From Apoderus coryli (taxonomy: Eukaryota > Arthropoda > Insecta > Coleoptera > Attelabidae), in the NCBI GenBank assembly GCA_911728435.2, contig OU452216.1, forward strand, positions 1,233,981-1,297,980: a stretch of DNA of 64,000 nucleotides, read 5' to 3'. Positions 11,816 to 60,059 of the stretch are shown here, piece by piece (the first letter of the stretch is position 1; each line of letters opens with the position of its first letter). Below the pieces are notes generated by a model, which searched no databases, was not told the DNA's origin, and saw nothing but the letters and a program-made list of their open reading frames with translations. Made by a program: the position numbers and the translations under genes.

Positions 11816-12830
11816 GGCTTTAAATTTATATACAGGGTGAATCAAAAATGTATTTCTCTATTTTTTTACCATTTTTTTTAACACGATAGGTGACTTTATT
11901 TTCTTTAAAATAGAAATTTTTAGCATAGGTTTTAAATTTATATACGGGGTGAATCAAAAATGTATTTCTTTATTTTGTTAAGGTGAAATATTTTGAATAA
12001 CTTTTTGATTTCTTTAGATTTCAAATCAAGATTTTTTGAAAGTTAAACTATAAGCTCAAATTTATATACAGGGTGAATCAAAAATGTATTTCTTTATTTT
12101 GTTAAGGCGAAATAGTAATATTTGGAATAATTTTTTGATATCTTTAGATTTCAAATCAAGATTTTTTGAAAGTTAAACTATAAGCTCAAATTTATATACA
12201 GGGTGAATCAAAAATGTATTTCTTTATTTTGTTTAGGTGAAATAGTAATATTTTGAATAACTTTTTGATTTCTTTAGATTTAAAATCAAGATTTTTTCAA
12301 AGTTAAACTATAAGCTCAAATTTATATACAGGGTGAATCAAAAATGTATTTCTTTATTTTGTTAAGGTGAAATATTTTGAATAATTTTTTGATTTCTTTA
12401 GATTTCAAATCAAGATTTTTTTAAAAGTTAAACTATAAGCTCAAATTTATATACAGGGTGAATCAAAAATGTATTTCTTTATTTTGTTAAGGTGAAATAG
12501 TATTGTTTTGAATAACTTTTTGATTTCTTTAGATATCAAATCAAGATTTTTTGAAAGTTAAACTATAAGCTCAAATTTATATACAGGGTGAATCAAAAAT
12601 GTATTTCTTTATTTTGTTAAGGCGAAATAGTAACATTTGGAATAATTTTTTGATTTCTTTAGATTTCAAATCAAGATTTTTTGAAAGTTAAACTATAAAA
12701 TCAAATTTATATACAGGGTGAATCAAAAATGTATTTCTTTATTTTGTTAAGGTGAAATAGTAATATTTGGAATAATTTTTTGATTTCTTTGGGTTTCAAT
12801 TCAATATTTCTTTGAAAGTTAAACTATATG
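11816..12830. repeat. Tandem array A3 (~120-130 bp units)
   Basis: About eight units of the same tandem family. The first two are diverged and separated by a short non-repeat piece. The array ends in the usual GGGTTTCAATTCAA variant and TATGCTCCTAGAGG. Confidence 0.95.
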
Positions 12831-13046
12831 CTCCTAGAGGTTTTCTACGGGGTAACTCAAAAATGTTTCTATTTATTTTCAATAATAGATAGAAACATTT
12901 TCAGATTTTCAGCTCTGGCAATACTTTTTTTTAATTATTTTTTTGTAATTTTTTTTTTTTATTTTTTTTTTTGAAAATTTTTTTTTCGAAATTTTTTTTT
13001 TTTAAATTTTTTTTTCAAAATTTTTTTTTTAAAATTTTTTTTTTTT

Positions 13047-26100: not shown

Positions 26101-26746
26101 TCATCTTTTTAAAAAGTTAGCCAATGACATATTATTAGAGTTCGTGACACTTTTACCTACCTCCAATTTTTTTACGCCACTGAATTAAATATATTTTTTT
26201 TATTCCCTGTTCATTTTTGCTTAAAAAAGTAATGACTTTTTGTATCTCTAAAGTGAATAGTTTTGCAGACATTTGCCTCTAAACAAATGTTTACAAGTAA
26301 GTAAGAATGCGTATTAATTAACACATAGTTGAAAGTAGCAACCTTTACTTGCAAACTTTTGTTTACAGGCAAATTCCTACAAAACTATTCAACTTAGGTC
26401 CATAATAAATGATTAGTTTTTAAAGCAGAAATTAACAAGAAATTTAATGAAATTAAAAAAATGATTAATATTCCAATGTTGTGTTGTTTTACGTATATCT
26501 AACACTGCTGCATTAGCGAAAATATTCCTCAAATTAATTTTTTTTCCTATTACATCCGTGTACTAATTTAAAAAAAAAACAATTTGTTAATTCTCTATAT
26601 TTTTTAAATATCAAACATTCAACATCAATTGCATCATACACATTTTCATAGTATAACAATTTTTATACTAAAAATCGAAAGAAAAAACAATTTAAAATAC
26701 TACATGTTTATTTTTTGTACATATTTTTAATATTATTTTATTTCAG
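23149..26746. other. Helitron copy 1, intron 4 (3.6 kb, repeat-filled)
   Basis: A phase-1 intron swollen by repeats. A motif containing TTCGACCGACAA or a close variant recurs near 23,271, 24,037, 25,049 and 25,881, in a repeat of roughly 0.8-1 kb. A 560-bp fold-back element interrupts it. The corresponding intron of copy 2 is only 735 bp, so the growth happened in this copy. Confidence 0.7.
24235..24794. mobile_element. Fold-back element with ~259-bp inverted arms
   Basis: Left arm 24235-24493 and right arm 24536-24794 are near-perfect reverse complements around a 42-bp centre, with ends GTAAGTTTTCTTTATTTAGG. A third partial copy of the inner arm (GACTAATAAACCAC) lies in the centre. Flanks AAATATTT and AAATATAT could be a degenerate target duplication. 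The arms contain GATCGAAACGTTAGTG with CTGAGGATGATC, wording common at ends of Penelope-like elements. No coding sequence is present. Confidence 0.8.
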
Positions 26747-29428: not shown

Positions 29429-29489
29429 GTAAGGAATTATTTCCTTCAAGTATTTCATTCTGCTAAACTTTTTTTATGCACACTTGCAG

Positions 29490-29919
29490 ACACTTTGTAC
29501 GATACTTTCCTGGATGCGTGCCGTGCACGTTTACTTCTTGACGATGATCAAGAATGGAACCGAGCATTACAAGAAGCTCGAGAGCACCAAGTACCTAAAG
29601 TTATTAGAAGACTTTTTGCTCACATCTTAATCTTCGGAGAAGTAACTAATCCATTGGAATTGTGGGAAGTGTTTCGTGACTGTATGATGGAAGATTACAT
29701 TCATCGCGGTTACAATAACAACAGAGCGGAACAACAAACGCTTGCATTTATACAGAGCATTATGTTGAGAAACAACAAACGTTTGTCTGATTTCAATCTT
29801 CCAGAACCACAGGAAAGATTGGAATTAAATGAGGTGCCTATAAATCCTCAAGATGAACTCCTTGCAGGAATTCAAATGCGAGATCAATTAAATGAAGATC
29901 AGCGCAACGTTTTCGACAG
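29490..29919 (+). CDS. Helitron copy 1, exon 6 (linker to helicase)
   Basis: Begins with the rest of the TVD codon, then TLYDTFLDACRARLLLDD, and ends NVFDR at an AG/GTAAAT donor in phase 2. It matches exon 6 of copy 2 throughout, including LSDFNLPEPQERLE. The preceding intron is only 61 bp (29429-29489). This region joins Rep to the Pif1-type helicase. Confidence 0.85.
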
Positions 29920-30482
29920 GTAAATTTCTTTAATTTACGTTTTTTTGAATGTTATAAATAATTGAATGCTACCGAATACAGTTTCAACAAATTACATTAC
30001 ATTTTCATTTATTTTCAACTTTTGTATTATTGCTTCATACTGTATTATAAATTACATGCATTAACATATCCATAACAACAGTGGATATTCTTTACAAGCA
30101 TTATATACTGTGTCCAAAATAAGAATGGCATAGCATTGATATCTTAGAACCGGTGAAATTTACAATGTCGGTTAAATTAAAAAAAAGTTGTACAATGTAA
30201 ATACCTTTCAAATGAAATTTTCAAAAGTAAAGTAACTTTAGCCGTTTTCAAGAATGTTTTAAAATACAATTTTTGGCAATTTTAGTTTTTATTTATTTCT
30301 GACTCTGACATTATTTTTACAAACATAGAAAAATTACAAACACGGTATACACCACGGGCATTACTAGATTATAATTGCCTTGGTAGATAAATAGCTACTC
30401 TGTACTTTTGCAATTACACTTTACATTCAGTCACCTAACAGTTATGCAACAACAACCTTTTACATATACTTTTTTTTTTCAG
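29920..30482. other. Helitron copy 1, intron 6, holding a truncated MITE
   Basis: A phase-2 GT-AG intron of 563 bp; the matching intron of copy 2 is 56 bp. The difference is partly a MITE end starting at 30,107 (ACTGTGTCCAAAATAAGAAT), related to the element at 21,452 and lost at its right side near 30,345. Confidence 0.7.
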
Positions 30483-31796
30483 AGTTATAGCTGCTGTTGA
30501 AAATGACAATGTAGAACCACGCTTATTCGCTGTCACTGGTTGCGCTGGAGCGGGAAAAACTTTTGTTTTTAACGCTTTAATTACGTATTTGAATGGTAGA
30601 GAACTTCCCGTAATACCTGTATCTTGGACTGGCATTAGCGCCAGCTTAATGAAACAAGGTAGGACTTTACACTCTCGCTTTAAACTTCCAGTTCCCCTTA
30701 CAGATACGTCTGTCTCAGAACTGCGAGCTAATAGTCAAGACGGTCGTTCTATCGAAAATGAGTTTTAAAAGATCTATGCGGCAACGACAAATTATTCGGC
30801 GGAAAAGTTATCCTACTTTCTGGTGACTTTCGTCAAACATTACCTGTCATGCCTAACGCATATCGGTCACAGATTGTTGCCGAAACTCTGCAATACAGCT
30901 TTCTGTGGCAATCATTTACCAAATTGCAATTAGTTACTAACGTGCGAGCACGTCCAGAAGAACGAGAATTTTCCGAATGGTTGCTACACTTGGGAAACAA
31001 CACTTTACCTTCTGTCAATATTCCTTCCTTACCAAGTCTATTTGTGGTTCCAGCACAATGTTTAGTGGCTTCCAAAGAGGAACTTTTGACAATTTGTTTT
31101 CCAAATTTGCAACCAGGAACTGTTCCTAAGTGTGCCATTCTAGCACCCCTAAACGAACATTGCAATGCCATAAATTTTGGAATCGTTCAAAATATGGAAG
31201 GTCCTGCGACTACCTATTATAGTGCGGACAAAATTTTATATGAAAACGATGAAGAAATTGAGGCAGCCAATTATCCTGTTGAATCGCTTAACTCACTCCA
31301 ACCAAATGGCATGCCAGAACATAAATTGATTTTAAAGGTTGGAGTTGTAGTTATGCTTTTACGGAACATGAATTGCGATCTGAGTTTATGCAATGGCACT
31401 CGGTTGCTAATTACTCGATTGTACCAACATAGCATTGAAGCGAGACGAATCGATATGACAGGAACCTTAACTGATCATACTGTCTTGATTCCGCGTATTG
31501 ATTTAACTGAGACTGTCGCCTCTCTTCCTTTCAAGTTGCGACTTCGACAATTTCCAGTTAAAGTTGCATACGCTATGACAATTAATAAATCCCAAGGTCA
31601 AACATTTGACAAGATAGGTATTTATTTACCTTATCCTGTATTTACCCATGGGATGATGTACACTGCCTTCAGTCGTACGAAAGGTTTCGATTGTGTACAT
31701 GTTTGTGTAGAGAACACCAGCTCACAAGGTAAATTACGCCCTACTTCTGATGAGGTCTACACTAAAAACATTGTTTTTACAGAAATTGTACGTTAA
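30483..31796 (+). pseudogene. Helitron copy 1, exon 7 (Pif1-type helicase, Walker B deleted)
   Basis: Opens with VIAAVENDNVEPRLF, then Walker A GCAGAGKTF. At 30760/30761 the sequence jumps over 64 bp present in copy 2, removing the DEMSM Walker B box and shifting frame, so a TAA follows at once. The next frame resumes at LKDLCGNDKLFGGKV and runs through GDFRQTLPVMP to AMTINKSQGQTFDKIG and the end EIVR. With both the stop in exon 5 and this deletion, no full product is possible. Confidence 0.9.
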
Positions 31797-35690: not shown

Positions 35691-36225
35691 TAGAAATTTT
35701 TAACGTACACTTTAAATTTATATACAGGGTGAATCAAAAATGTATTTCTTTATTTTGTTAAGGTGAAATAGTATTGTTTTGAATAACTTTTTGATATCTT
35801 TAGATTTCAAATCAAGATTTTTTTAAAAGTTAAACTATAAGCTCAAATTTATATACAGGGTGAATCAAAAATGTATTTCTTTATTTTGTTAAGGTGAAAT
35901 AGTAATATTTTGAATAATTTTTTGATTTCTTTAGATTTCAAATCAAGATTTTTTGAAAGTTAAACTATAAGCTCAAATTTATATACAGGGTGAATCAAAA
36001 ATGTATTTCTTTATTTTGTTAAGGTGAAATATTTTGAATAATTTTTTGATATCTTTAGATTTCAAATCAAGATTTTTTGAAAGTTAAACTATAAGCTCAA
36101 ATTTATATACAGGGTGAATCAAAAATGTATTTCTTTATTTTGTTAAGGTGAAATAGTAATATTTTGAATAATTTTTTGATTTCTTTAGATTTCAAATCAA
36201 GATTTTTTGAAAGTTAAACTATATG
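35691..36225. repeat. Tandem array A4
   Basis: Four units of the 120-130 bp family after the lead-in TTAACGTACACTTTAAAT. The last unit runs directly into TATGCTCCTAGAGG without the usual GGGTTTC change. Confidence 0.95.
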
Positions 36226-36795
36226 CTCCTAGAGGTTTTCTACGGGGTAACTCAAAAATGTTTCTATTTATTTTCAATAATAGATAGAAACATTTTCAGA
36301 TTTTCAGCTCTGGCAATACTTTTTTTTAATTATTTTTTTTTAATTTTTTTTTTTTTTATTTTTTTTTTTGAAAATTTTTTTTTTCGAAATTTTTTTTTTT
36401 GAAATTTTTTTTTTTAAATTTTTTTTTTCAAAATTTTTTTTTTTTAATTTTTTTTTTAGATTTTTTTTTTTAAATTTTTTTTTCAAAATTTTTTTTTTTT
36501 AATTTTTTTTTCAAAAATTTTTTTTTTTAATTTTTTTTTTGACACATTTATTTTCCCTTGAAATTTTTTTTTTTTAATTTTTTTTTTTAATTTTTTTATA
36601 ACCCTCAATGACTTTTTTCATAGATAAAACTACCACAAACCAACTGGGAAATCCCGCAAGGGATTTCTTGTTAATATTAATAAAACCCGTACAGTCCGTC
36701 TCTGTCTAAAATTGGGAAAAAAAGACCAAAAGTGTGGCGGATTTGGCATCTAGCCACGCCGAAGGCGTGGCCCCCGCTTTATTGATATAGAAACT
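36226..36795. repeat. Array tail B4
   Basis: Poly-T tail. Hairpin 1 (36648-36667) has a four-base GCAA loop in place of GAA. Hairpin 2 is at 36753-36771 with the GCCACGCC stem. Otherwise it matches the tail at 1,226-1,720. Confidence 0.85.
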
Positions 36796-37754: not shown

Positions 37755-38365
37755 TTTAACGTACACTTTAAATTTATATACAGGGTGAATCAAAAATGTA
37801 TTTCTTTATTTTGTTAAGGTGAAATAGTATTGTTTTGAATAACTTTTTGATTTCTTTAGATTTCAAATCAAGATTTTTTTTTAAAGTTAAACTATAAGCT
37901 CAAATTTATATACAGGGTGAATCAAAAATGTATTTCTTTATTTTGTTAAGCTGAAATAGTATTGTTTTGAATAACTTTTTGATTTCTTTAGATTTCAAAT
38001 CAAGATTTTTTTAAAAGTTAAACTATAAGCTCAAATTTATATACAGGGTGAATCAAAAATGTATTTCTTTATTTTGTTAAGGTGAAATATTTTGAATAAC
38101 TTTTTGATTTCTTTAGATTTCAAATCAAGATTTTTTGAAAGTTAAACTATAAGCTCAAATTTATATACAGGGTGAATCAAAAATGTATTTCTTTATTTTG
38201 TTAAGCTGAAATAGTATTGTTTTGAATAACTTTTTGATTTCTTTAGATTTCAAATCAAGATTTTTTTAAAAGTTAAACTATTATATATATTTATATTATA
38301 TATTTTGAATAATTTTTTGATTTCTTTGGGTTTCAATTCAAGATTTCTTTGAAAGTTAAACTATA
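37755..38365. repeat. Tandem array A5
   Basis: Four units plus a broken one. The array passes through a short AT run near 38,281 into the standard GGGTTTCAATTCAAG end variant. Confidence 0.9.
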
Positions 38366-40684: not shown

Positions 40685-42380
40685 CGTACACTTTAAATTT
40701 ATATACAGGGTGAATCAAAAATATATTTCTTTATTTTGTTAAGGTGAAATAGTATTGTTTTGAATAACTTTTTGATTTCTTTAGATTTCAAATCAAGATT
40801 TTTTTTAAAGTTAAACTATAAGCTCAAATTTATATACAGGGTGAATCAAAAATGTATTTCTTTATTTTGTTAAGCTGAAATAGTATTGTTTTGAATAACT
40901 TTTTGATTTCTTTAGATTTCAAATCAAGATTTTTTGAAAGTTAAACTATAAGCTCAAATTTATATACAGGGTGAATCAAAAATATATTTCTTTATTTTGT
41001 TAAGGTGAAATATTTTGAATAATTTTTTGATTTCTTTAGATTTCAAATCAAGATTTTTTTAAAAGTTAAACTATAAGCTCAAATTTATATACAGGGTGAA
41101 TCAAAAATGTATTTCTTTATTTTGTTAAGGTGAAATAGTATTGTTTTGAATAACTTTTTGATTTCTTTAGATTTCAAATCAAGATTTTTTGAAAGTTAAA
41201 CTATAAGCTCAAATTTATATACAGGGTGAATCAAAAATGTATTTCTTTATTTTGTTAAGGTGAAATAGTATTGTTTTGAATAACTTTTTGATTTCTTTAG
41301 ATTTCAAATCAAGATTTTTTTAAAAGTTAAACTATAAGCTCAAATTTATATACAGGGTGAATCAAAAATGTATTTCTTTATTTTGTTAAGGCGAAATAGT
41401 AATATTTGGAATAATTTTTTGATATCTTTAGATTTCAAATCAAGATTTTTTGAAAGTTAAACTATAAGCTCAAATTTATATACAGGGTGAATAAAAAATG
41501 TATTTCTTTATTTTGTTAAGGTGAAATAGTAATATTTTGAATAATTTTTTGATTTCTTTAGATTTCAAATCAAGATTTTTTTAAAAGTTAAACTATAAGC
41601 TCAAATTTATATACAGGGTGAATCAAAAATGTATTTCTTTATTTTGTTTAGGTGAAATAGTATTGTTTTGAATAACTTTTTGATTTCTTTAGATTTCAAA
41701 TCAAGATTTTTTTAAAAGTTAAACTATAAGCTCAAATTTATATACAGGGTGAATCAAAAATGTATTTCTTTATTTTGTTAAGGTGAAATAATATTGTTTT
41801 GAATAACTTTTTGATTTCTTTAGATTTCAAATCAAGATTTTTTGAAAGTTAAACTATAAGCTCAAATTTATATACAGGGTGAATCAAAAATGTATTTCTT
41901 TATTTTGTTAAGGTGAAATAGTATTGTTTTGAATAACTTTTTGATTTCTTTAGATTTCAAATCAAGATTTTTTGAAAGTTAAACTATAAGCTCAAATTTA
42001 TATACAGGGTGAATCAAAAATGTATTTCTTTATTTTGTTAAGGTGAAATAGTATTGTTTTGAATAACTTTTTGATTTCTTTAGATTTCAAATCAAGATTT
42101 TTTTAAAAGTTAAACTATAAGCTCAAATTTATATACAGGGTGAATCAAAAATGTATTTCTTTATTTTGTTTAGGTGAAATAGTATTGTTTTGAATAACTT
42201 TTTGATTTCTTTAGATTTCAAATCAAGATTTTTTTAAAAGTTAAACTATAAGCTCAAATTTATATACAGGGTGAATCAAAAATGTATTTCTTTATTTTGT
42301 TAAGGTGAAATAGTAATATTTTGAATAATTTTTTGATTTCTTTGGGTTTCAATTCAAGATTTCTTTGAAAGATAAACTAT
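40685..42380. repeat. Tandem array A6 (longest)
   Basis: About thirteen units of the 120-130 bp family, mostly of the AGTATTG subtype, ending with the GGGTTTCAATTCAAG variant. Adjacent units are very similar, which suggests recent local expansion. Confidence 0.95.
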
Positions 42381-42728
42381 ATGCTCCTAGAGGTTTTCTA
42401 CGGGGTAACTCAAAAATGTTTCTATTTATTTTCAATAATAGATAGAAACATTTTCAGATTTTCAGCTCTGGCAATACTTTTTTTTAATTAATTTTTGAAT
42501 TATTTTTTTTTTAAATTTTTTTTTTTAAATTTTTTTTTTGAAATTTTTTTTTTTAAATTTTTTTTTTTTAATTTTTTTTTTTAATTTTTTTTTAATAATA
42601 GAAACATTTTTTTCCTTGAAATTTTTTTTTTTTTATTTTTTTTTTCATTTTTTTTGCCACCCTCAATGACTTTTTTTATAGATAAAACTACCACACAACG
42701 ACTGGTAAATCCCGAAGGGATTTCTTGT
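42381..42728. repeat. Array tail B6, ending just after hairpin 1
   Basis: Poly-T tail with AAATCCC-GAA-GGGATTT around 42,707-42,724. Unlike all other copies, similarity stops a few bases after the hairpin (TTCTTG then TCAAGAAATA). Hairpin 2 and the C body are missing. The break marks either an element end or an insertion point. Confidence 0.8.
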
Positions 42729-45779: not shown

Positions 45780-48700
45780 GTAAGTTATTTGCATAAACAT
45801 ATATTCTCGATAATACTGTTATATACCTAATAAAAAAATGTATGTTGACATGTTACTAAAGATAAAACATTGTTAAAGTTATGTTATTTTCACATTTTAA
45901 TTTTAAATTTGTAAAACTTAGATTCCACGAATGCTAGCATTGATGGCACACAATCCACGCAATCGACTGTGGTTGAAATTCTTTCATCTGAAAGAACGAA
46001 AACACAACACAACACAGACAAGCTAGCTGCAACAAGTAAAATAGCAGAAACAGTAATTTCCCCGAGACAAGAGATAACTAACTCTTTAAATTGTAAGTAT
46101 TATTGAACTATTTTTTTAAACCTATTTAATATTTACTAAATAATAAAAACAAAATAGATATTCTAATAAGTATATTTCAAATACAACGTCCTGCATTTTA
46201 TGCTATCTTCAAATAATATACACATCTCTCAGCGTTTTGTTTTGTTTCATTTTCAAAAACAACCCGCAACACCTGCTTAGCTAAACAGGCAACTAAATTA
46301 TTTATTTAAATTCGTATCAATCAAATGTTTAACATTTTCAACATATAATAATAACAGCATCCTACAAATGCAAACATAAAATGAAAAAAATCGGTTGTAT
46401 CACCCCAAAACTTTCCCGATAATTTATGATATGATACTCAAAAATACCCTGCGTAACTAAACAGAATTTTAATATAATTATTATTATTTAATTGTATTAT
46501 ATTCATCATTTCCAATAAACTACGTTACAAAATAACTACTTTATTCAAAAATTAGAAAAAAAGTATTGCCGGAGCTGACTCGAATCCGTACATTTAGCGA
46601 TTGTGTCCACCACTATCATGAGACTTAAGCGATATCAACCAAAATCTAATGGCTTCATCCTAGGACTGCCCCAAAACTTAGCTCAATTAGTTAAAGCGTT
46701 TGGGCGCTATCGCGGAAGAATACAGACATACATACACACAAACTGACAGACTTCCATCTGGAAATGGTATTAATGGTCTCAGGAAACTTCAAAATAGTTA
46801 TATCGGTCTTTATCTCAATTTTTTTTAAGTGCGTTCACAATACTTCCCTGTACGTTAGAACCATTAAACTTTTGGTTTAAAACTTTCCCTCGAAAATCAA
46901 CAGTTTTCAAAATACTTAATAAAATAGGATTTGGCGTTTTTCACAAATCACCCTGTATTTCAAAAGCTAAAATGAATTTGTCTACACAATAAAGAGAGTT
47001 TAAAAAGGCATCAAAAACCGCAACTTTTATTTAATTTCACCAACTTTCTATCTAGCACAGTTAAATGTTAAATAGTATTGAACTATTAAATAGTGGCTAC
47101 CCTATTCATATAATTATTATTTTAGGTATAATAAAATATCTGATCTAAAAAAAATGCACGCCTTAATAGTCGCAAAAGTCGATACTATGGAAGACACTTT
47201 TATTTTTCGCGCAATCCGGTTCTCAATTGACAGAATTGACACTGGTTACTACGCTCGTGATACAGAGTATTCCATTTAAAAATAATGTTTTTTTTACTAT
47301 TCATTTACGTAAATGGTAAATATATACCCATTAATTACCAACTATAAATGTTAAACTTTTGTTTATATGCATTGCCTAATCCCAGGAAAAAATGCCTTCA
47401 ATACTTATATGAAATTTTTATTAAAAATGCCATAATTTTTCCTTTTTTATATAAACTTTAGCTGCTGTCTCACAAGAGAAACGTCCTATGCATTCGAGCC
47501 CAGGACCAAGTAGACGTACTCAATTAGCGATTGTTTATACACCAATAAACAATAGTGAAAGAAAACGTCTTCGTATTTCCAATACACCAAACATATTGGA
47601 AGACAACTCAACCCAAACAGTTGTTATAACAACTAATATTAATGAAAAAAATCAACAACGAGGTAATATATTTTATATCATAAAAAAACTCAATATTTTT
47701 TCTTTTAAATATTTTTTTTCTTATTAAATAATTTGTTTTAGTTGCTACAACTACTCGAGAACTTGGTCGAGAACACCTAAGTCAAATCCCTGGTCCGAGT
47801 AAAATTGTGAAAAATAATCAAAATTCTCAGAATAACAAAAAAAATGAAATTTCCAATACACAAAGTACTTTACTAAGTGGATTGGAAGGCACCAGAGCAG
47901 ATAATCAACATGCTGCAACCAATGAGCCAATGGATATTGAAATACCTTCCCAACCAGGTGTTACTTTAATTTTATTAAACAGTGTGTCCACTTAAGTTCG
48001 CACCATATGGAAAACTTTTTTATTAATAATTTTACGAAAAAAAGTTATTCTTCATAAAAATCATGTAGAGATGTTAATAATTCACAAACAAGCGTCAAAA
48101 AATCGTTGCAAGTGAAGAAATGAGGTGAAATAAAATTGGTAAAGACACACTATCAAAAATTTTATCCATACATTAAAAACTGAAGTCTACGACAGACGAC
48201 TAGAATTTTATTCTCTTAAGAAAAACTAGAAGACGATCCTTTTTTGACTAGGAAAATAAATTTCTCTGACGAAGCTACATTTACGTATAATGGAACAGTC
48301 TTCGCAAAATTGTCCACAGTGGACTGACTCCAATCCTCACTTTAAAACTCGCGATCAATAGTATTTTAAAATAACGTTTTGTGCGCCAATGGCAAGGATA
48401 AAATAACATTTTTTTCGCATAATTAATACTAAAAAAGTTTTCGATATAGTGCGAACTTAAGTAGACACACGGTATAAAAATTTCACAAAAAACATATATG
48501 TATACAAAATTTAAACACACAAATATATTTAAAAGAAATCATCAATAGTCATATTTTATTTAAATTGTATTATAGATACATTAAATTTCAAAAATTTATG
48601 TTCCAAAATTTGCATGTTAATAACAAATTTATATTTTATTCAATTAAAAATCAGTTAATTAAATTTATTACAATCATATATTTTCATTTTAGCTAATGGT

Positions 48701-51700
48701 AATGATGTAAGAATACTCACACCATTACTTGCAGCTGAAGAGGAAGTTATACATGTTGAAATTGACCCAGTGGTTGAAGCAGTAAACGAAAATCTGAATA
48801 TTCCAAATCCAAATGATCTGGAAAATCGCATGGCTCATCATCGTGAAGAAGTAGATGATTTACATGCTAATCTTATTCGCCAGAGAATATTAGGAAACTA
48901 TAAACCTTCTTATCTAAGAGCTTTCGAACGAATCGCTCAACCACAGCACATCGGAGCTCTAGATAGACAGTGCACATTTTGTAGCGCACTACATTTTGCA
49001 ATGGAACGAACTGTTGGTCGTTCATCTTACACAAAATGTTGTAAAGGTGGCAAAATTCATATTGACAATTTACCTCCCTTACAAGAATTTCCACAACAAT
49101 TAAAAGATTTATTTTTAGGGCAACATCCGTTGTCGAGACAATTTAAACGAAATTCAATTCGTTACAACAATGCTTTTCAGATGGCTTCTATAAAGGCTAA
49201 TCTTCGGGAATTTCGCAATCCTGGACCGTTTCCTTATTCAATACATGGCAGAGTATACTACCATTATTCCAATGTAAACGTGGCAAATCCTCAACCAAAC
49301 AGAGGCCCAATCTACTTCATGGGTCCAAATGAAGCTGTCAATCAACGTATAGCTAATCAAGTGCGACACAACCTTAATCAAGAGTTGGTGCGAATAATTG
49401 AGAATGTTATGCGAACATTTAATCCTTATGCTAGAGGATATATGATGTTACGTGAGGTTTATGAAAATGAACTGCAACGCAATAATAACGAAGTTCCCAA
49501 TGTGGTATTGGAGCTATTAGCAGTAAGGGGCGATAGAAGCTTCGATTTACCAACAGTAAACGAAGTTGCTGCCGTATATCCTTTTAATAACGAATTAGCT
49601 CCAACATCAAATTTTCGAATTTTCGTTCGAAATCAACCTGAACAACCAGGACAACGTGAACGATTCCAAACTATTTTCCACACAGACCAACGAACGGATC
49701 CGATGTGTTTCCCTTTGTTGTTTCCGTCTGGGGAATTTGGTTGGTCTATTAACCTGGTACACAGGAATAGCAATAGGAGAGTAACTTTATGTCAATATTA
49801 TGCATATCGTTTGGCAATCAGACCAGAAAATGACCATAATCCTTTTGATCGTTTTAAATATGCTGGTTTATTAACTCAACAGTTTATTGTTTCAGCTTAT
49901 GCTCGAGTTGAGGCAAACAACATTGAGTTCGTTAAAAGGAATCAAGATCGACTACGAGCTGAATTCTACGACGGACTCATTGATTACCTTCATCAAATAG
50001 CAAATAACGAGGAGGTAGAACAAGCTGGACGTATGGTGATACTGCCATCTAGCTTTATAGGAAGTCCACGTTATATGCAGCAATTGCTACAAGATAGCCT
50101 TTGTTTGCAAAGCAAATTTGGATTACCAACCTTCTTTATTACAATGACTTGCAATCCGCAATGGCCTGAAATTATAGATAACATTCCACCAAATGACGAT
50201 GCTTCAAATCATCCAATGTTGGTGACCAGAGTATTCAACACCAAATTGAATCAACTTTTAAAAGAACTTTTAGAAGACCATATATTTGGGATACCATTGT
50301 GTCAATTCTACACAATTGAATTCCAAAAACGTGGCCTCCCTCATGCCCATATTGTATTAACAGTACGAGCAGAAGATAAATTAGTCGATCCTCTACGCAT
50401 AGACCAAGCAATATGCGCAGAGATACCAGATCGTCAACTAGAACCAGAACTTTACGACTTGGTTATGAAACATATGATTCATAATCCATGCGGCATTGAA
50501 AATCCAAATGCTTCGTGCATGGAAGAAGGCCGTTGTAAGCGGAGATTCCCACATGAATTTTGTGAAGAAACTTTCATGAAGCCAAATGGTCGAGTTAGTT
50601 ACAAAAGAAGTAACAATGGCAGAGAAGTATTTATTAGAAACACGCATATTGTCAATAACAAATGGGTAGTTCCGTACAATCGTTACCTTTTACTTCGGTA
50701 CAAGGCTCATATTAATATTGATATCTGTGCCAGCCAAAATGTAGTCAAATATCTCCACAAATACGTTTATAAAGGAGTTGATTGTGGTTTACTTCATTTA
50801 CAAGTCAATAATGCAATCAACTATGATGAGACTGAAACGTATTTAGCTGGAAGATATTTGAGTGCACCTGAAGCTGCACATCATCTGAATCAGTTCAAAA
50901 TTCATGATATGACTCATACTGTATATAGATTACCAGCGCACCTACCTCATAGAAATATTGTACATTTCCAGAGAGGTAATGAAGCTGCAGCTGTGCAAGC
51001 CAATCGAACAACACAGCTAACTGATTGGTTTCGTTTAAATCAAGAAGATATTGATGCAAATCAATATAGATACCCAGATATACCTCTATACTATGTCTGG
51101 AAACTTCCACAACGACGTTGGCAACGACGACAACGTGGTGGAGACAAAATGGTTGCACGAATGTATAATGTGTCTATTCGTAGCACTGAACAATATTACT
51201 TACGAGTATTATTGCTGCATGTTAGAGGAGCCACTTCATATGAAGATCTACGCACTGTTGATGGTACATATTTTATATTAACATATCTACAAATTTATTA
51301 GTTCGTTATTTATTACAGAAAAAATCTCTCATCTCAACACATTTATTTATTTTTTTTTAGGTGTATTATACGATACCTATCTTGATGCATGTAGAGCTAG
51401 ACTCCTCTTACAAGATGATGAAGAATGGAATCGAGCATTAGATGAAGCTCGACGAAGCCATACTGCAAAAAAGATTAGGAGATTTTTTGCTCACATTCTC
51501 TGTTTTGCAGAAGTGACAAATCCTCAAAATTTGTGGGAAATGTTTAAAGATTCAATGATGGAAGACTACATTGACCGTGGGTTAACCAACATTAGAGCTG
51601 AACAACAAACTTTAGCATACATCCAAAGCATTTTGGTACGAAACAATAAACGTTTATCTGACTTCAATCTACCAGAACCACAGGAAAGATTGGAGAACGA

Positions 51701-53227
51701 TATCGTTAATCCTGTAAACCCTGAAGAAGAGTTAAATGCAGGTCTTCAATTGCGCGCTCAATTAAATGAGGCTCAAAGCGATGTCTTTGACAGGTATAAT
51801 AATTTAATTTTTTTATGTAATATTTATTTCATTGTTTTTTTCCTTCTAGGGTCTTAGCCGCTGTTGAAGATGATAATATACAACCACGATTATTTGCTGT
51901 TGACGGACCAGCAGGTTCGGGCAAGAGTTTTACGTTAAATACTCTAATTACCTACCTAAATGGCAGAGAAATTCCAGTGGTGCCAGCATCATGGACTGGC
52001 ATTAGTGCTAGCCTCATAAAACAAGGAAGGACATTGCACTCTCGCTTCAAGCTTCCGATTCCTATAACAGACACTTCTGTATCAGGTCTCAGAGCCAATA
52101 CGCAGGAAGGCCGCTTTATCAAAAATGCAAAACTGATCATTATTGATGAAATGTCCATGATTCCCCGTTTAGCTCTAGAACTAATTAACAGAGTATTAAA
52201 GGATCTTTGTGGTAATGACAAATTATTTGGTGGCAAAGTTATTTTGCTCTCCGGAGACTTTCGTCAAACTCTACCAGTAATGCCTGATGCATATCGTTCA
52301 CAAATTGTATCAGAAACAATCAAATATAGTTATATTTGGCCAGCTTTCACTAAATTGATGTTAGTGGTCAACGAAAGAGCACGTCCAGAAGAACAAGAAT
52401 TTTCCCAGTGGCTTCTACACTTAGGAAATGCTACTTTACCTTCTGTAAATATTCCTACAAGACCCAGTCTATTTACTGTTCCGCCTCACTGTATAGTAGG
52501 TTCCAAGGAACAGTTAATACAAGTTTGCTTTCCAAATTTACAACCTGGAAATGTACCCAATTGTGCTATTCTCACGCCATTAAATCAAAATTGTAACTTA
52601 ATTAATCAATCGATTGTTCAAGCTATAACCGGCCCTGCAACTATCTACTACAGTGCCGATACAATTCTCTACGAAAACGATGAATATGTTCAAGCAGCCA
52701 ACTACCCAGTTGAACTGCTTAATTCCCTTCAACCAAATGGCATGGCGGAACATAAGTTAGTGCTGAAAGTTGGAGTGGTGATTATGTTATTACGGAACAT
52801 GAATTGTGATATGAATTTGTGCAATGGTACAAGATTATTGATCATTCGACTAAATCAGTATAGTATTGAAGCACAGAGAATAGATATGAGAGGTAACTTA
52901 ACTGATCGTTCTGTTTTAATACCACGTATTGACATGACTGAAACTGTTCCGTCTTTACCATTTAAAATGAAACGACGACAGTTCCCAGTCAAAGTTGCAT
53001 ACGCAATGACTATCAATAAATCTCAAGGTCAAACTTTTGAAAGGATTGGCATATATCTGCCATATCCTGTATTTACTCACGGTATGATTTATACATGTTT
53101 CAGTCGCACCCGTGGATTCGACTCTGTGCATATTTGCATAGAAGAAACCGATTCTCAAGGCAAACTACGCCCTGGATCTGACGATGTATATACCAAAAAC
53201 ATCGTCTTCACTGAAATTCTTCGTTAG
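45701..53227 (+). CDS. Helitron Rep-helicase transposase, copy 2 (seven exons, apparently intact)
   Basis: Gene model: 45701-45779, 45922-46092, 47462-47662, 47742-47957, 48693-51263, 51361-51793, 51850-53227. All sites are GT-AG; phases are 1,1,1,1,1,2 as in copy 1. Exons sum to 5,049 nt, giving 1,682 residues. Visible: a basic start, a Ser/Thr-rich linker to ~residue 222, Cys region ~316-340 (CTFC, KCCKGGK), Rep motif 1 TMTCNPQWPEI ~700, HUH GLPHAHIVL ~770, two-tyrosine KYLHKYVYKG ~910, Walker A GPAGSGKS ~1243, Walker B DEMSM ~1322, GDFRQTLPV ~1359, TINKSQGQTF ~1607. In Helitrons this enzyme nicks, strand-transfers and unwinds element DNA. No AP endonuclease domain is seen, so it is not a typical Helentron. 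Element ends were not found. Confidence 0.9.
45922..46092 (+). CDS. Helitron copy 2, exon 2
   Basis: Symmetrical phase-1 exon. Reads DSTNASIDGTQSTQSTVVEI, then a Lys/Thr-rich tail ending TNSLN before GTAAGT. Low complexity, likely disordered. Confidence 0.65.
46093..47461. other. Helitron copy 2, intron 2 (1.4 kb)
   Basis: GT-AG intron carrying a degenerate tRNA-like SINE piece near 46,556-46,760 and an ACCCTGTA mariner-like fragment near 46,950. The rest is AT-rich. The matching intron of copy 1 holds a different insertion (a MITE). Confidence 0.55.
46556..46760 (-). repeat. tRNA-derived SINE-like remnant
   Basis: On the minus strand a D-arm-like CATGATAGTGGTGGAC is followed by a B-box-like GGATTCGAGTC (46577-46587), CAGCTCCGGCAATAC and a T7 run. 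That is the layout of a tRNA-type Pol III unit with its terminator. To the right, on the plus strand, TTAGCTCAATTAGTTAAAGC also resembles a tRNA A box. The stems do not all pair, so it is a relic and not a tRNA gene. The 3' wording CAGCTCYGGCAATACTTTTT is also found in the tails of the tandem arrays. Confidence 0.4.
47462..47662 (+). CDS. Helitron copy 2, exon 3
   Basis: Symmetrical phase-1 exon. Contains HSSPGPSRRTQLAIV and ERKRLRISNTPNI. It is a proline/serine motif plus a basic patch shared with exons 3 and 4 of copy 1. Confidence 0.7.
47742..47957 (+). CDS. Helitron copy 2, exon 4
   Basis: Symmetrical phase-1 exon. Contains SQIPGPSKI, an Asn/Lys-rich run, then MDIEIPSQPG before the donor. 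The acidic MDIEI resembles the MEIEEL repeats at the start of exon 5 of copy 1. Confidence 0.7.
47982..48471. mobile_element. Mariner-type element relic with ~41-bp inverted ends
   Basis: The left end GTGTGTCCACTTAAGTTCGC and the right end (reverse complement GTGTGTCTACTTAAGTTCGC) match at about 38 of 41 positions. Inside, plus-strand fragments read FSDEATFTYNGTV, then after a frame change QWTDSNPHFKTRD and KITFCAPMARI. These correspond to the part of a mariner-family transposase around its second catalytic aspartate. At ~490 bp most of the transposase is lost. It lies in intron 4 of Helitron copy 2. Confidence 0.8.
48693..51263 (+). CDS. Helitron copy 2, exon 5 (Cys region and Rep nuclease)
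   Basis: The largest exon, with no interruption. It begins ANGNDVRIL and ends ATSYEDLRTVD at a phase-1 donor (GATG/GTACAT). It contains QCTFCSALHFAMERT with KCCKGGK, FKRNSIRYNN, EAVNQRIANQ, then Rep motif 1 (TMTCNPQWPEI), the HUH motif (QKRGLPHAHIV) and the two-tyrosine motif (VVKYLHKYVYKG). Both tyrosines and both histidines are present, so the nuclease active site appears complete. Confidence 0.95.
51361..51793 (+). CDS. Helitron copy 2, exon 6 (linker)
   Basis: Begins VLYDTYLDACRARLLLQDD and ends SDVFDR at a phase-2 donor (CAG/GTATAA). It is flanked by introns of 97 and 56 bp. Similarity to copy 1 over the whole length confirms both splice sites. No enzyme motif; it joins nuclease to helicase. 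Confidence 0.85.
51850..53227 (+). CDS. Helitron copy 2, exon 7 (Pif1-type helicase)
   Basis: Complete superfamily 1B helicase part: Walker A DGPAGSGKSF, GRTLHSRFKLP, Walker B LIIIDEMSM, GDFRQTLPVMP, RARPEEQEF, LRNMNCDMNLCNGTRL, and KVAYAMTINKSQGQTF near the end. Terminates EILR with TAG at 53225-53227. It is the reference against which the 64-bp deletion of copy 1 is seen. Confidence 0.95.
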
Positions 53228-54415: not shown

Positions 54416-55033
54416 GAACCTAATAATTTAAATAGTGATGGCTAACACCCACTATAAAAAAGGACGTCTTTTAGTGTAACAAAACCACCTTCAAAGCGAT
54501 GGACAAAATAATAATCTACAATTTTGGTTAATCCACAGATAATACATAACAACAAGCGATGCAGCACTGATACTAATAAAATTATTTTGGTAAGACACTA
54601 TCTACAATTCCTAGATCGTCAAACAATAATTAAATTCAAACTTTGTTAATTGTAAAACAACACGTTGGTAATCATTGTAATTTTCATTTTAAATAATTAC
54701 TATTCTAATTTCATAAAAAAAATTAATATATTTTTCAGAGACCCAAGTATGCACCAACATTTTCCATAAAATTTAACAAGTCTCATATTCAAAATGAATA
54801 AATGATAACTAACTCGATATGAAATGACTAAACATGATGAAGAAGAAAAGTAAAACACTAACATCTCATCATAAATAAATAAATTTACTAATGTAAATTT
54901 CATTGATTTTATTTTTAATTTTATTAACAAATACATTTAATTTTTTTCCAGAAATGTATAGAATAACAATTTATAATTAAAGCCTATCTTTTCATGGATT
55001 TATGAGTGAACATGAATTTCAACAATAAATATA
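54416..55033. repeat. Dispersed repeat, copy interrupted by the satellite
   Basis: About 600 bp (sharing ATTTTGGTTARTCCACA, TGGTAAGAC and ACAATTCCTAGATCG) that is repeated in diverged form at 60,060-60,600. The satellite block is inserted at its right end, after AATTTCAACAATAAATATAT. No coding sequence. Confidence 0.65.
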
Positions 55034-55262
55034 TTGAGAAAGAGATGTTTGTGGCGACACCTAGCGTGAACAGGCAATATGCCGGGTGAAACACAGTTCA
55101 CTACGATGGCCGGACAAGAAGTAACAACTCCATTATATCCTATTGCCAACACTAGATGCGCCCGAATCCCCTAGCAGGGAGGCTTTATTTAAGAATTGCT
55201 TGTTACATAGAGCAACAAGACTTTAAGTTATGTTGGAAATTTATTTCACACTACCATGCTTC

Positions 55263-55304
55263 CACCAGACGGCCGTTTCGTCGATCCACGACTCATCAGT
55301 GGTG
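55263..55304 (-). ncRNA. Hammerhead ribozyme copies, minus strand (first of eight)
   Basis: Complete ribozyme core read on the minus strand. Further copies start every 336 bp at 55599, 55935, 56271, 56607, 56943, 57279 and 57615, each 42 bp in core length. The conserved bases are the same as in the plus-strand copies described at 58,023. Confidence 0.85.
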
Positions 55305-57646
55305 ATCGGCAGGCAGTGTGACCTAAATTTCCAACATTTACAAAGAGCTTATACTAGCACGAGAATTGATTGAGAAAGAGATGTTTGTGGCGACACCTAG
55401 CGTGAACAGGCAATATGCCGGGTGAAACACAGTTCACTACGATGGCCGGACAAGAAGTAACAACTCCATTATATCCTATTGCCAACACTAGATGCGCCCG
55501 AATCCCCTAGCAGGGAGGCTTTATTTAAGAATTGCTTGTTACATAGAGCAACAAGACTTTAAGTTATGTTGGAAATTTATTTCACACTACCATGCTTCCA
55601 CCAGACGGCCGTTTCGTCGATCCACGACTCATCAGTGGTGATCGGCAGGCAGTGTGACCTAAATTTCCAACATTTACAAAGAGCTTATACTAGCACGAGA
55701 ATTGATTGAGAAAGAGATGTTTGTGGCGACACCTAGCGTGAACAGGCAATATGCCGGGTGAAACACAGTTCACTACGATGGCCGGACAAGAAGTAACAAC
55801 TCCATTATATCCTATTGCCAACACTAGATGCGCCCGAATCCCCTAGCAGGGAGGCTTTATTTAAGAATTGCTTGTTACATAGAGCAACAAGACTTTAAGT
55901 TATGTTGGAAATTTATTTCACACTACCATGCTTCCACCAGACGGCCGTTTCGTCGATCCACGACTCATCAGTGGTGATCGGCAGGCAGTGTGACCTAAAT
56001 TTCCAACATTTACAAAGAGCTTATACTAGCACGAGAATTGATTGAGAAAGAGATGTTTGTGGCGACACCTAGCGTGAACAGGCAATATGCCGGGTGAAAC
56101 ACAGTTCACTACGATGGCCGGACAAGAAGTAACAACTCCATTATATCCTATTGCCAACACTAGATGCGCCCGAATCCCCTAGCAGGGAGGCTTTATTTAA
56201 GAATTGCTTGTTACATAGAGCAACAAGACTTTAAGTTATGTTGGAAATTTATTTCACACTACCATGCTTCCACCAGACGGCCGTTTCGTCGATCCACGAC
56301 TCATCAGTGGTGATCGGCAGGCAGTGTGACCTAAATTTCCAACATTTACAAAGAGCTTATACTAGCACGAGAATTGATTGAGAAAGAGATGTTTGTGGCG
56401 ACACCTAGCGTGAACAGGCAATATGCCGGGTGAAACACAGTTCACTACGATGGCCGGACAAGAAGTAACAACTCCATTATATCCTATTGCCAACACTAGA
56501 TGCGCCCGAATCCCCTAGCAGGGAGGCTTTATTTAAGAATTGCTTGTTACATAGAGCAACAAGACTTTAAGTTATGTTGGAAATTTATTTCACACTACCA
56601 TGCTTCCACCAGACGGCCGTTTCGTCGATCCACGACTCATCAGTGGTGATCGGCAGGCAGTGTGACCTAAATTTCCAACATTTACAAAGAGCTTATACTA
56701 GCACGAGAATTGATTGAGAAAGAGATGTTTGTGGCGACACCTAGCGTGAACAGGCAATATGCCGGGTGAAACACAGTTCACTACGATGGCCGGACAAGAA
56801 GTAACAACTCCATTATATCCTATTGCCAACACTAGATGCGCCCGAATCCCCTAGCAGGGAGGCTTTATTTAAGAATTGCTTGTTACATAGAGCAACAAGA
56901 CTTTAAGTTATGTTGGAAATTTATTTCACACTACCATGCTTCCACCAGACGGCCGTTTCGTCGATCCACGACTCATCAGTGGTGATCGGCAGGCAGTGTG
57001 ACCTAAATTTCCAACATTTACAAAGAGCTTATACTAGCACGAGAATTGATTGAGAAAGAGATGTTTGTGGCGACACCTAGCGTGAACAGGCAATATGCCG
57101 GGTGAAACACAGTTCACTACGATGGCCGGACAAGAAGTAACAACTCCATTATATCCTATTGCCAACACTAGATGCGCCCGAATCCCCTAGCAGGGAGGCT
57201 TTATTTAAGAATTGCTTGTTACATAGAGCAACAAGACTTTAAGTTATGTTGGAAATTTATTTCACACTACCATGCTTCCACCAGACGGCCGTTTCGTCGA
57301 TCCACGACTCATCAGTGGTGATCGGCAGGCAGTGTGACCTAAATTTCCAACATTTACAAAGAGCTTATACTAGCACGAGAATTGATTGAGAAAGAGATGT
57401 TTGTGGCGACACCTAGCGTGAACAGGCAATATGCCGGGTGAAACACAGTTCACTACGATGGCCGGACAAGAAGTAACAACTCCATTATATCCTATTGCCA
57501 ACACTAGATGCGCCCGAATCCCCTAGCAGGGAGGCTTTATTTAAGAATTGCTTGTTACATAGAGCAACAAGACTTTAAGTTATGTTGGAAATTTATTTCA
57601 CACTACCATGCTTCCACCAGACGGCCGTTTCGTCGATCCACGACTC

Positions 57647-57699
57647 ATCAGTGGTGATCGGCAGGCAGTGTGACCTAAATTTCCAACATTTACAAAGAG
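57647..57699. other. Inversion centre of the satellite
   Basis: A 50-bp spacer (57647-57696), then the array turns over. GAG at 57697-57699 fits both the outgoing unit (ACAAAGAGCTTA) and the incoming reversed unit (GATGAGTCGTGG). This three-base overlap suggests joining at microhomology. The arms to either side can pair over ~2.1 kb. Confidence 0.85.
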
Positions 57700-59822
57700 T
57701 CGTGGATCGACGAAACGGCCGTCTGGTGGAAGCATGGTAGTGTGAAATAAATTTCCAACATAACTTAAAGTCTTGTTGCTCTATGTAACAAGCAATTCTT
57801 AAATAAAGCCTCCCTGCTAGGGGATTCGGGCGCATCTAGTGTTGGCAATAGGATATAATGGAGTTGTTACTTCTTGTCCGGCCATCGTAGTGAACTGTGT
57901 TTCACCCGGCATATTGCCTGTTCACGCTAGGTGTCGCCACAAACATCTCTTTCTCAATCAATTCTCGTGCTAGTATAAGCTCTTTGTAAATGTTGGAAAT
58001 TTAGGTCACACTGCCTGCCGATCACCACTGATGAGTCGTGGATCGACGAAACGGCCGTCTGGTGGAAGCATGGTAGTGTGAAATAAATTTCCAACATAAC
58101 TTAAAGTCTTGTTGCTCTATGTAACAAGCAATTCTTAAATAAAGCCTCCCTGCTAGGGGATTCGGGCGCATCTAGTGTTGGCAATAGGATATAATGGAGT
58201 TGTTACTTCTTGTCCGGCCATCGTAGTGAACTGTGTTTCACCCGGCATATTGCCTGTTCACGCTAGGTGTCGCCACAAACATCTCTTTCTCAATCAATTC
58301 TCGTGCTAGTATAAGCTCTTTGTAAATGTTGGAAATTTAGGTCACACTGCCTGCCGATCACCACTGATGAGTCGTGGATCGACGAAACGGCCGTCTGGTG
58401 GAAGCATGGTAGTGTGAAATAAATTTCCAACATAACTTAAAGTCTTGTTGCTCTATGTAACAAGCAATTCTTAAATAAAGCCTCCCTGCTAGGGGATTCG
58501 GGCGCATCTAGTGTTGGCAATAGGATATAATGGAGTTGTTACTTCTTGTCCGGCCATCGTAGTGAACTGTGTTTCACCCGGCATATTGCCTGTTCACGCT
58601 AGGTGTCGCCACAAACATCTCTTTCTCAATCAATTCTCGTGCTAGTATAAGCTCTTTGTAAATGTTGGAAATTTAGGTCACACTGCCTGCCGATCACCAC
58701 TGATGAGTCGTGGATCGACGAAACGGCCGTCTGGTGGAAGCATGGTAGTGTGAAATAAATTTCCAACATAACTTAAAGTCTTGTTGCTCTATGTAACAAG
58801 CAATTCTTAAATAAAGCCTCCCTGCTAGGGGATTCGGGCGCATCTAGTGTTGGCAATAGGATATAATGGAGTTGTTACTTCTTGTCCGGCCATCGTAGTG
58901 AACTGTGTTTCACCCGGCATATTGCCTGTTCACGCTAGGTGTCGCCACAAACATCTCTTTCTCAATCAATTCTCGTGCTAGTATAAGCTCTTTGTAAATG
59001 TTGGAAATTTAGGTCACACTGCCTGCCGATCACCACTGATGAGTCGTGGATCGACGAAACGGCCGTCTGGTGGAAGCATGGTAGTGTGAAATAAATTTCC
59101 AACATAACTTAAAGTCTTGTTGCTCTATGTAACAAGCAATTCTTAAATAAAGCCTCCCTGCTAGGGGATTCGGGCGCATCTAGTGTTGGCAATAGGATAT
59201 AATGGAGTTGTTACTTCTTGTCCGGCCATCGTAGTGAACTGTGTTTCACCCGGCATATTGCCTGTTCACGCTAGGTGTCGCCACAAACATCTCTTTCTCA
59301 ATCAATTCTCGTGCTAGTATAAGCTCTTTGTAAATGTTGGAAATTTAGGTCACACTGCCTGCCGATCACCACTGATGAGTCGTGGATCGACGAAACGGCC
59401 GTCTGGTGGAAGCATGGTAGTGTGAAATAAATTTCCAACATAACTTAAAGTCTTGTTGCTCTATGTAACAAGCAATTCTTAAATAAAGCCTCCCTGCTAG
59501 GGGATTCGGGCGCATCTAGTGTTGGCAATAGGATATAATGGAGTTGTTACTTCTTGTCCGGCCATCGTAGTGAACTGTGTTTCACCCGGCATATTGCCTG
59601 TTCACGCTAGGTGTCGCCACAAACATCTCTTTCTCAATCAATTCTCGTGCTAGTATAAGCTCTTTGTAAATGTTGGAAATTTAGGTCACACTGCCTGCCG
59701 ATCACCACTGATGAGTCGTGGATCGACGAAACGGCCGTCTGGTGGAAGCATGGTAGTGTGAAATAAATTTCCAACATAACTTAAAGTCTTGTTGCTCTAT
59801 GTAACAAGCAATTCTTAAATAA
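57700..59822 (+). repeat. Hammerhead-bearing 336-bp satellite, inverted orientation
   Basis: Reverse complement of the neighbouring block, starting mid-unit and ending mid-unit at CTTAAATAAA. The 59,822 end corresponds to 55,521 in the first block. It includes six full ribozymes and one truncated at the inversion. The spacing is again exactly 336 bp. Confidence 0.95.
58023..58064 (+). ncRNA. Hammerhead ribozyme copies, plus strand (first of six)
   Basis: Stem I 5' strand CACCA (58023-58027). Core CTGATGA (58028-58034). Stem II GTCG-TGGAT-CGAC (58035-58047). GAAA (58048-58051). Stem III lies within the self-complementary ACGGCCGT (58051-58058). Cleavage base C of the GTC triplet is at 58059. 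Stem I 3' strand is TGGTG (58060-58064). Stem I is extended by CACACT/AGTGTG (58007-58012 with 58075-58080) and ATGTTGGAAATTTA/TAAATTTCCAACAT (57990-58003 with 58084-58097), separated by internal loops. All invariant bases of the family are present. The very short stem III suggests cleavage as a dimer. Other copies: 58359, 58695, 59031, 59367, 59703. Confidence 0.9.
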
Positions 59823-60059
59823 ATATATTCTTACAACAATTTTGTAACATAATTTAGCATCTATAATGAAAAAAATTATTTTATTAAAAAAATTATTATA
59901 TTTTTTTCAATTTCCCTATTATTTTAAGATTATATCTATATAATTTGTTATTAAAATACCTATATTAAATATGTTTTATTTCGCTATTGTATTTATATAC
60001 ATATACTTAAATAAATAATTTTATATTTTTTTAAATATTATATATTCCATAATTATTAT
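59823..60059. other. Right flank of the satellite insertion
   Basis: AT-rich DNA that continues the interrupted dispersed repeat (TATATTCTTACAACAATTTT compared with TATATTCTTTACAATAATTT near 60,568). Confidence 0.5.

Follow-up and report, generated by a model that had tools for sequence, protein, structure and literature searches.

The window analyzed here, a 64,000-nucleotide stretch from the attelabid beetle Apoderus coryli (assembly GCA_911728435.2, contig OU452216.1, positions 1,233,981 to 1,297,980 of the forward strand), contains a 4.8-kb insertion in which a single 336-bp monomer is repeated in two divergent arrays, with a canonical type I hammerhead ribozyme motif in each unit, as is required of a metazoan retrozyme that lacks long terminal repeats (LTRs). 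The insertion is probably a non-autonomous, non-coding retrozyme of this metazoan kind, mobilized by an enzyme of the Penelope-like element (PLE) type from two start sites on one circular RNA. In the retrozyme as well as in the PLEs of the same genome, an insertion makes use of each of its two start sites once, and this is new here. A sequence-only reading of the window had already proposed a retrozyme, which is the best-supported reading; the inverted layout, as a signature of the copying, had gone unnoticed in it, as had the target-site duplication and the occurrence of the same layout in resident PLEs.

Structure of the insertion and its predicted ribozyme

Both arrays have a period of 336 bp with 100% matches and 0% indels in Tandem Repeats Finder, 7.9 copies forming the minus array and 6.3 copies the plus array (coordinates in Table 1). 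The whole is flanked by a 12-bp target-site duplication, AATAAATATATT, which the array overlaps by 3 bases on the left and 6 bases on the right. Monomer positions are numbered from u1, which is position 57988 of the window. The monomer has a GC content of 0.443. When stop-to-stop open reading frames of at least 120 amino acids were looked for, none was found in the array, which hence lacks a frame for a reverse transcriptase and a GIY-YIG endonuclease; the element itself is therefore not a PLE and is merely inserted PLE-style. By simple patterns, the RNA polymerase III A box, the B box and TATA are all missing from the monomer, in which a very relaxed A-box pattern has a single match.

The 14 hammerhead cores counted in the sequence-only reading, at a 336-bp period in identical monomers, are all present: the 32-nt core occurs in 14 exact copies in the window, eight on the minus and six on the plus strand, and no copy with up to three mismatches was found in 100 dinucleotide-preserving shuffles of the window. 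The hammerhead spans u36–u77 and is made up of a stem I (CACCA/TGGTG) extended by a long helix, the CTGATGA motif, a stem II (GTCG/CGAC), GAA and a short, self-complementary stem III, ACGGCCGT; the predicted cut falls after u72 (position 58059), with a C before it. The Rfam model Hammerhead_1 (RF00163) is matched in full, over model positions 1–45, with 32.3 bits and an E-value of 5.7e-6 in a search of 901 bases, and the match consists of standard pairs only, with no non-standard pair marked. A default Rfam scan of the window returned no entry at the gathering score, and a scan of IMG/VR with the 32-nt core returned 0 contigs.

Folded as a circle, the monomer reaches −110.6 kcal/mol, versus −79.8 kcal/mol (standard deviation 5.0) for 100 dinucleotide shuffles (z −6.1); the complementary strand, folded in the same way, reaches −88.9 kcal/mol. 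The circle is thus predicted to be highly self-paired, as is typical of retrozymes. In the predicted fold, positions 142–159 and 288–317, which correspond to the two outer-end sites A and B described below, are open strands of the same central multiloop, located between the ribozyme rod and a second arm. Their mean unpaired probability is 0.83 for A and 0.91 for B, the overall value being 0.39.

Dispersed copies and their outer ends

A search of the same genome with the monomer (428 Mb, 129 contigs) gave at least 224 matches, 40 of the 1383 first-look candidates having been scored; 39 loci taken from the matches listed, together with the window, form a sample of 40 loci. Most of these loci have the inverted layout. 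Ten named core positions of the hammerhead are kept in 94 of the 95 near-full monomers of the sample. Ends were counted on 38 loci, with one locus whose flanks are inverted (L036) and one that is interrupted (L066) set apart.

The longest stretch common to the two flanks reaches 11 bp or more in 27 of the 38 loci, compared with 0.4% of 736 mismatched left/right pairings. The commonest duplication lengths are 12 and 13 bp, which exceed the 4 bp of plant retrozymes, as do those of metazoan retrozymes. Beyond the duplication, the left and right flanks of these 27 loci are unlike. Uninterrupted relatives of the target, carrying the duplication once, were found for at least five of the 23 loci probed (L035, L042, L044, L056 and L058).

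The outer ends of the arms fall nearly all at one of two sites of the monomer, site A (~u148–157), where the RNA reads ...AAUUCUUAAAUAAA, and site B (~u299–307), where it reads ...CUUUCUCAAU. Both ends lie on a site in 28 loci, and these comprise 27 A+B, one A+A and no B+B, a proportion of A+B with a P of ~1e-7 under free choice. The other ten loci have one site end only, six at A and four at B, and eight of them are single-arm insertions. Arms ending at A and at B have similar lengths (medians 742 versus 840, Wilcoxon p 0.43, 27 loci), and 44 of the 54 arms exceed 336 nt, a rate biased by the choice of loci through near full-length monomer matches. The sites A and B are mutually similar, with a P of 0.005 in 1000 shuffles that is uncorrected for the choice of the stretch.

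Some loci show particular arrangements. The array and the flanks of L036 form one long inverted repeat, with 99 of the first 100 flank bases included, and this locus is either a true palindrome or an assembly error. In L066, a 353-bp spacer with a poly-A end is present twice (534–886 and 1239–1591) in a 705-bp unit, with 19 bases of the monomer repeated at its borders; it looks like an insertion of the short interspersed element type into a monomer, followed by tandem duplication, and the idea of a chimeric 705-bp unit was dropped in view of the poly-A end and the bordering repeat. Jumps inside an arm, from u155 to u290 in L039 (3224–3322) and from u198 back to u173 in L052 (1997–2207), look like template switching during copying.

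Template, priming and the candidate helper

Monomers show 4.7 differences per kb within the same arm, 3.9 with the other arm of the locus and 12.6 with other loci, in a count over all 40 loci that includes old flank fragments, by which the within-arm figure is raised. Fixed locus-specific variants are present in both arms: in 4/4 and 3/3 monomers at three sites of L060, in 3/3 and 3/3 of L056, in 2/2 and 5/5 of L052, and in 1/1 and 2/2 of L051. A lone monomer of L058 also carries one of the three L060 changes, and single-monomer changes are found in many loci, as expected of later mutation. The locus-specific variants of both arms therefore indicate one template for the two arms.

The inner ends of the arms, read on 29 clean junctions, are evenly spread: the distance between the two inner positions gives a Kolmogorov–Smirnov p of 0.66, and the positions are at most 12 nt apart in three junctions, versus 2.2 expected. 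The arms share 1–8 bases in 20 junctions, abut in three and are separated by a gap of 1–17 bases in six. This set consists of re-read rows, from which L050, L067, the second row of L041 (an old fragment) and short pieces of L053 and of the window were taken out; the plus-arm inner ends alone give p 0.10 in it and p 0.009 in the uncleaned 32-row table. The simplest reading is one shared endless template, that is, one circle, which would account for the scattered inner ends and for arms that meet or lie at most 17 bases apart. Alternatively, existing arrays could have supplied linear multimeric transcripts as template, with the same PLE-type priming at two sites, which we consider unlikely. Arrays of up to ~8 units do exist for transcription, and the near-identical monomers of an array would equally give uniform arms, but no arm runs on into the flank of a source array at any of the 29 clean junctions, and hammerheads are expected to cut multimeric array transcripts.

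PLEs are resident in the same genome. In a search for the GIY-YIG endonuclease, 150 of 1260 candidates were scored, all above the cut-off, and many of the matches form minus/plus pairs with the endonuclease ends outward. In the pair whose ends are L097/L098, the plus arm (L109) contains an open frame of 716 amino acids in which RVT_1 (E 1.7e-15) precedes GIY-YIG (E 3.6e-6), which is the Penelope order; searched against NCBIfam, the PLE protein gave matches below the cut-off only. Four short pairs are inverted copies with 98–99.9% identity, and seven of their eight outer ends carry a hammerhead-like motif, CTGAGGA ... GAAA CGCGCGTC.

Family-1 PLEs have two outer ends, S, reading ...GTCAGTTTA, and T, reading ...TTCTACTCATCGATTATA and located ~35 nt beyond S. 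S stands opposite T in 12 of 12 readable family-1 pairs (3/3 and 9/9) and in 2 of 2 readable family-2 pairs, in which the ends were read by eye. Among the 16 pairs looked at, 14 were readable at both ends, one end being readable in L072 and L078/L079; the sample was chosen as pairs, and the counts measure the S+T rule, not the frequency of pairing. The flank stretches in common are 12–14 bp long in nine of nine family-1 pairs, without a mismatched control. Inverted copies with outward 3′ ends, a short end standing opposite a long or "tail" end, are the PLE style of insertion, and this style is found in both kinds of element, as A+B in 27/28 retrozyme loci and as S+T in 14/14 readable PLE pairs.

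The centers of the PLE pairs are near-symmetric in four of ten cases (L070, L071, L073 and L106), namely in three of the four pairs picked for their short span and in one of six others, seen at the midpoint only; no symmetric center was found in L072, nor at the midpoints of L103, L104, L105, L107 and L108. At the near-symmetric centers, both enzymes may sometimes reach the same template end. The proposal that PLE arms always stop at the same end of a linear RNA, leaving a palindromic center, fails with four of ten pairs only. Rfam microRNA matches at the centers of inverted repeats were taken as foldback artefacts. A third group of GIY-YIG-bearing copies (L080–L082), ~99% alike over 770–800 bp, has internal repeats of ~140 bp (72–78%) that are related to the retrozyme target DNA at L035 and L044.

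Two other routes to a divergent pair were weighed against the PLE-type one. Twin priming of the retrozyme RNA by an enzyme of the long interspersed element (LINE) type is distinctly improbable. Metazoan retrozymes may have LINEs as well as PLEs as helpers according to PMC7229834, and L1 offers a known case of twin priming with target-site duplications (PMC2837659). Both the one-of-each rule and the duplication length, on the other hand, are common to the retrozyme and the resident PLEs. To our knowledge, LINEs do not show such a rule at two internal start sites. Even less credible is self-priming (snap-back) of one strand, which would yield the second arm and was proposed for rotifer Penelope from palindromic junctions (Arkhipova et al. 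2013, PMC3846280). The near-symmetric centers of four of ten PLE pairs would agree with it, but the inner ends of the retrozyme are asymmetric (3/29 junctions within 12 nt, close to expectation), and a snap-back copy should presumably end where the first began, whereas 27 of 28 loci and 14 of 14 readable PLE pairs have unlike outer ends. Self-priming does not predict different outer ends, and a PLE-type dimer on two sites is therefore proposed; on balance we lean, by a little, toward a dimeric PLE enzyme with each protomer on one start site of a single RNA and fed by one 3′ overhang of a staggered double-strand break, so that this RNA would serve for the extension of both strands, as a rule of Penelope-type retrotransposition in general.

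The satellite label of the sequence-only reading fits poorly because the loci are short and dispersed, most of them with target-site duplications: an ordinary satellite shaped by unequal exchange and chance inversion has next to no likelihood, its satellite-like period and homogeneity being set against these features, the fixed outer ends and the divergent arms, and a classical one, with long homogenized arrays devoid of insertion hallmarks, is at odds with the dispersed short arrays, most of them with duplications. An assembly artefact, the inverted chimera that the flank-inclusive repeat of L036 might suggest, is just as far from credible, but for that locus, as the flanks differ beyond the duplication in the 27 loci that share at least 11 bp.

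For a retrozyme mobilized by a PLE-type enzyme, we propose the following course. A tandem array would be transcribed and its hammerheads would cut the transcript to 336-nt units, which would be closed into highly self-paired circles. A PLE-type enzyme would cut AT-rich DNA on both strands with a stagger of 12–13 nt, a value taken from the duplications, and both 3′ ends would serve as primers on one and the same RNA, with reverse transcription starting at A from one of them and at B from the other. Each copying run could round the circle up to ~8 times, and the two complementary DNAs would be joined end to end, usually with few shared bases, giving divergent arrays between target-site duplications.

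Several points weigh against this reading. The anatomy, the duplications, the end rule and the shared variants are observed; transcription, cutting, the circle, the enzyme and its dimer are steps that we infer. The RF00163 score of 32.3 lies 1.7 bits short of the gathering score of 34, so that the refuting condition set in the sequence-only reading, a score below threshold, formally applies in spite of the full-length match; we still take the motif for a hammerhead, since no copy lacks the core or its pairs. The ribozyme shows no sign of stronger conservation than the rest of the monomer in this set of young copies (variable sites 4/42 versus 35/294 elsewhere, P 0.80). The active hammerhead fold lies 8.7 kcal/mol above the best circular fold, and cleavage may therefore be suppressed in the closed circle, while positions 295–300, at the edge of B, are predicted to be paired at 20 °C and unpaired at 25 and 37 °C. 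A shared 11-bp stretch is lacking in 11 of the 38 loci, some of which are at chance level; L049 is A+A, with its left end at u168, and the second arm of L062 and of L069 is short and terminates off-site. Regarding the helper, the PLE hammerhead motif is weak by Rfam (18.3 bits, E 3.2), A and B are unlike the PLE start sites S1, T1, S2 and T2 of the two PLE groups compared (P 0.33–1.0), and retrozyme DNA matches PLE ends at chance level only. Co-adaptation of PLE enzymes with their cis sequences, as argued in PMC3846280, speaks against the two compared families as helper. In vitro, the start sites of the anole PLE are equal between strands, an observation that neither shows nor excludes a one-of-each rule, and the start site of this element, PAc, has no homology to the cut DNA, unlike the array ends here, which overlap the duplications by a few bases (PMC11167929).

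If the dimer reading is correct, two polymerases would chase each other round a circle, and as many as 14 units could thereby be left in divergent arrays by a 336-nt RNA; in that case, metazoan retrozymes would parasitize the PLE dimer. The shared anatomy points to PLEs as the type of retrozyme helper, and the one-of-each rule bears on the origin of PLE inverted pairs with a one-sided "tail". As a speculation, read-through of the long inverted arrays might give hairpin RNA, a possible source of small RNAs.

Table 1. Features of the retrozyme insertion, in positions of the window
Feature	Position	Strand	Basis
Target-site duplication, left copy AATAAATATATT (last 3 bases also array)	55024–55035	.	
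Minus arm, 7.9 identical monomers, outer end u307 (site B)	55033–57699	−	
Hammerhead core, exact copy	55268–55299	−	Core search
Hammerhead core, exact copy	55604–55635	−	Core search
Hammerhead core, exact copy	55940–55971	−	Core search
Hammerhead core, exact copy	56276–56307	−	Core search
Hammerhead core, exact copy	56612–56643	−	Core search
Hammerhead core, exact copy	56948–56979	−	Core search
Hammerhead core, exact copy	57284–57315	−	Core search
Hammerhead core, exact copy (RF00163 match 57614–57657)	57620–57651	−	Core search and Rfam
Inner junction of the arms (divergence point), 3-bp shared GAG	57697–57699	.	Overlap of the two arrays
Plus arm, 6.3 identical monomers, outer end u156 (site A)	57697–59823	+	
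Reference monomer u1–u336 for all comparisons	57988–58323	+	
Type I hammerhead, RF00163 full-length, 32.3 bits, predicted cut after 58059	58022–58065	+	
Type I hammerhead, RF00163 full-length, predicted cut after 58395	58358–58401	+	
Hammerhead core, exact copy	58700–58731	+	Core search
Hammerhead core, exact copy	59036–59067	+	Core search
Hammerhead core, exact copy	59372–59403	+	Core search
Hammerhead core, exact copy	59708–59739	+	Core search
Target-site duplication, right copy AATAAATATATT (first 6 bases also array)	59818–59829	.	

The window also contains other repeats. A minisatellite with a period of 124–131 bp forms six arrays (1–1223, 6821–7845, 11934–12833, 35714–36228, 37770–38281 and 40695–42386), each followed within ~200 bp by a T-rich tract of a 12–15-bp repeat. 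What follows the minisatellite arrays within the first 20 kb is itself repeated at a spacing of ~5.0–6.7 kb, with 87–99% identity in the reported stretches, as if a larger element carried the array. Two stretches, 26731–31796 and 48659–53227, contain long frames of the Helitron-helicase type; for the frame searched, 48698–51301, relatives occur among beetles, an aphid, wasps, ants and plants, the best named one being a protein of the beetle Anoplophora glabripennis (49%).

Comparison with known systems

Metazoan non-LTR retrozymes are known, with insects among their hosts, and PLEs are a strong candidate for the helper of the animal elements, for which LINEs or PLEs are named (Cervera and de la Pena 2020, PMC7229834); retrozymes are likewise presented as tandem repeats, with LINEs or PLEs as possible helpers, in PMC7761336 and PMC11722881. 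The element described here shares with these retrozymes the type I hammerhead, a unit within 170–400 nt, short tandem arrays, a GC content below 50%, long target-site duplications, the non-coding nature and a highly paired predicted circle (PMC7229834). It differs in its mostly divergent pairs, tandem repeats without mention of inverted pairs being reported in the available part of that paper, and in outer ends fixed at two sites, each used once per insertion. In searches of a mainly open literature, judged by titles and abstract beginnings, no paper was found that describes divergent retrozyme arrays or a one-of-each rule, and the available part of PMC12910113 contains nothing on either.

The hammerhead satellites of newts, schistosomes and Dolichopoda cave crickets, likened here by description, also carry a hammerhead in their repeat units, and the newt repeats have been re-read as retrozymes (PMC7229834). 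Plant LTR retrozymes have in common with the present element the hammerhead-processed circles as transposition intermediates, but differ by a type III hammerhead, LTRs, 4-bp target-site duplications and circles of 600–800 nt (PMC7229834).

Among the PLEs, the purified anole enzyme cuts and extends both strands in vitro, with a preference for ATT, is a predicted dimer, and starts internally on its RNA, at two neighboring sites matching the "tail" seen in genomic copies; ribozyme mutants leave its insertion in vitro unaffected (Frangieh et al. 2024, PMC11167929). Rotifer Penelope has inverted ends, one of which may bear a 31-bp tail, and 8–10-bp duplications (PMC3846280). PLEs encode a reverse transcriptase and a GIY-YIG endonuclease, whereas the retrozyme encodes nothing; its start sites lie ~150 nt apart, compared with ~35 nt in PLEs, and, unlike in PLEs, its arms are multi-unit and their ends overlap the duplications. 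With PAc of Anolis and rotifer Penelope it shares inverted copies, target-site duplications, a hammerhead, AT-rich targets and two internal start sites or a one-sided "tail" (PMC11167929, PMC3846280).

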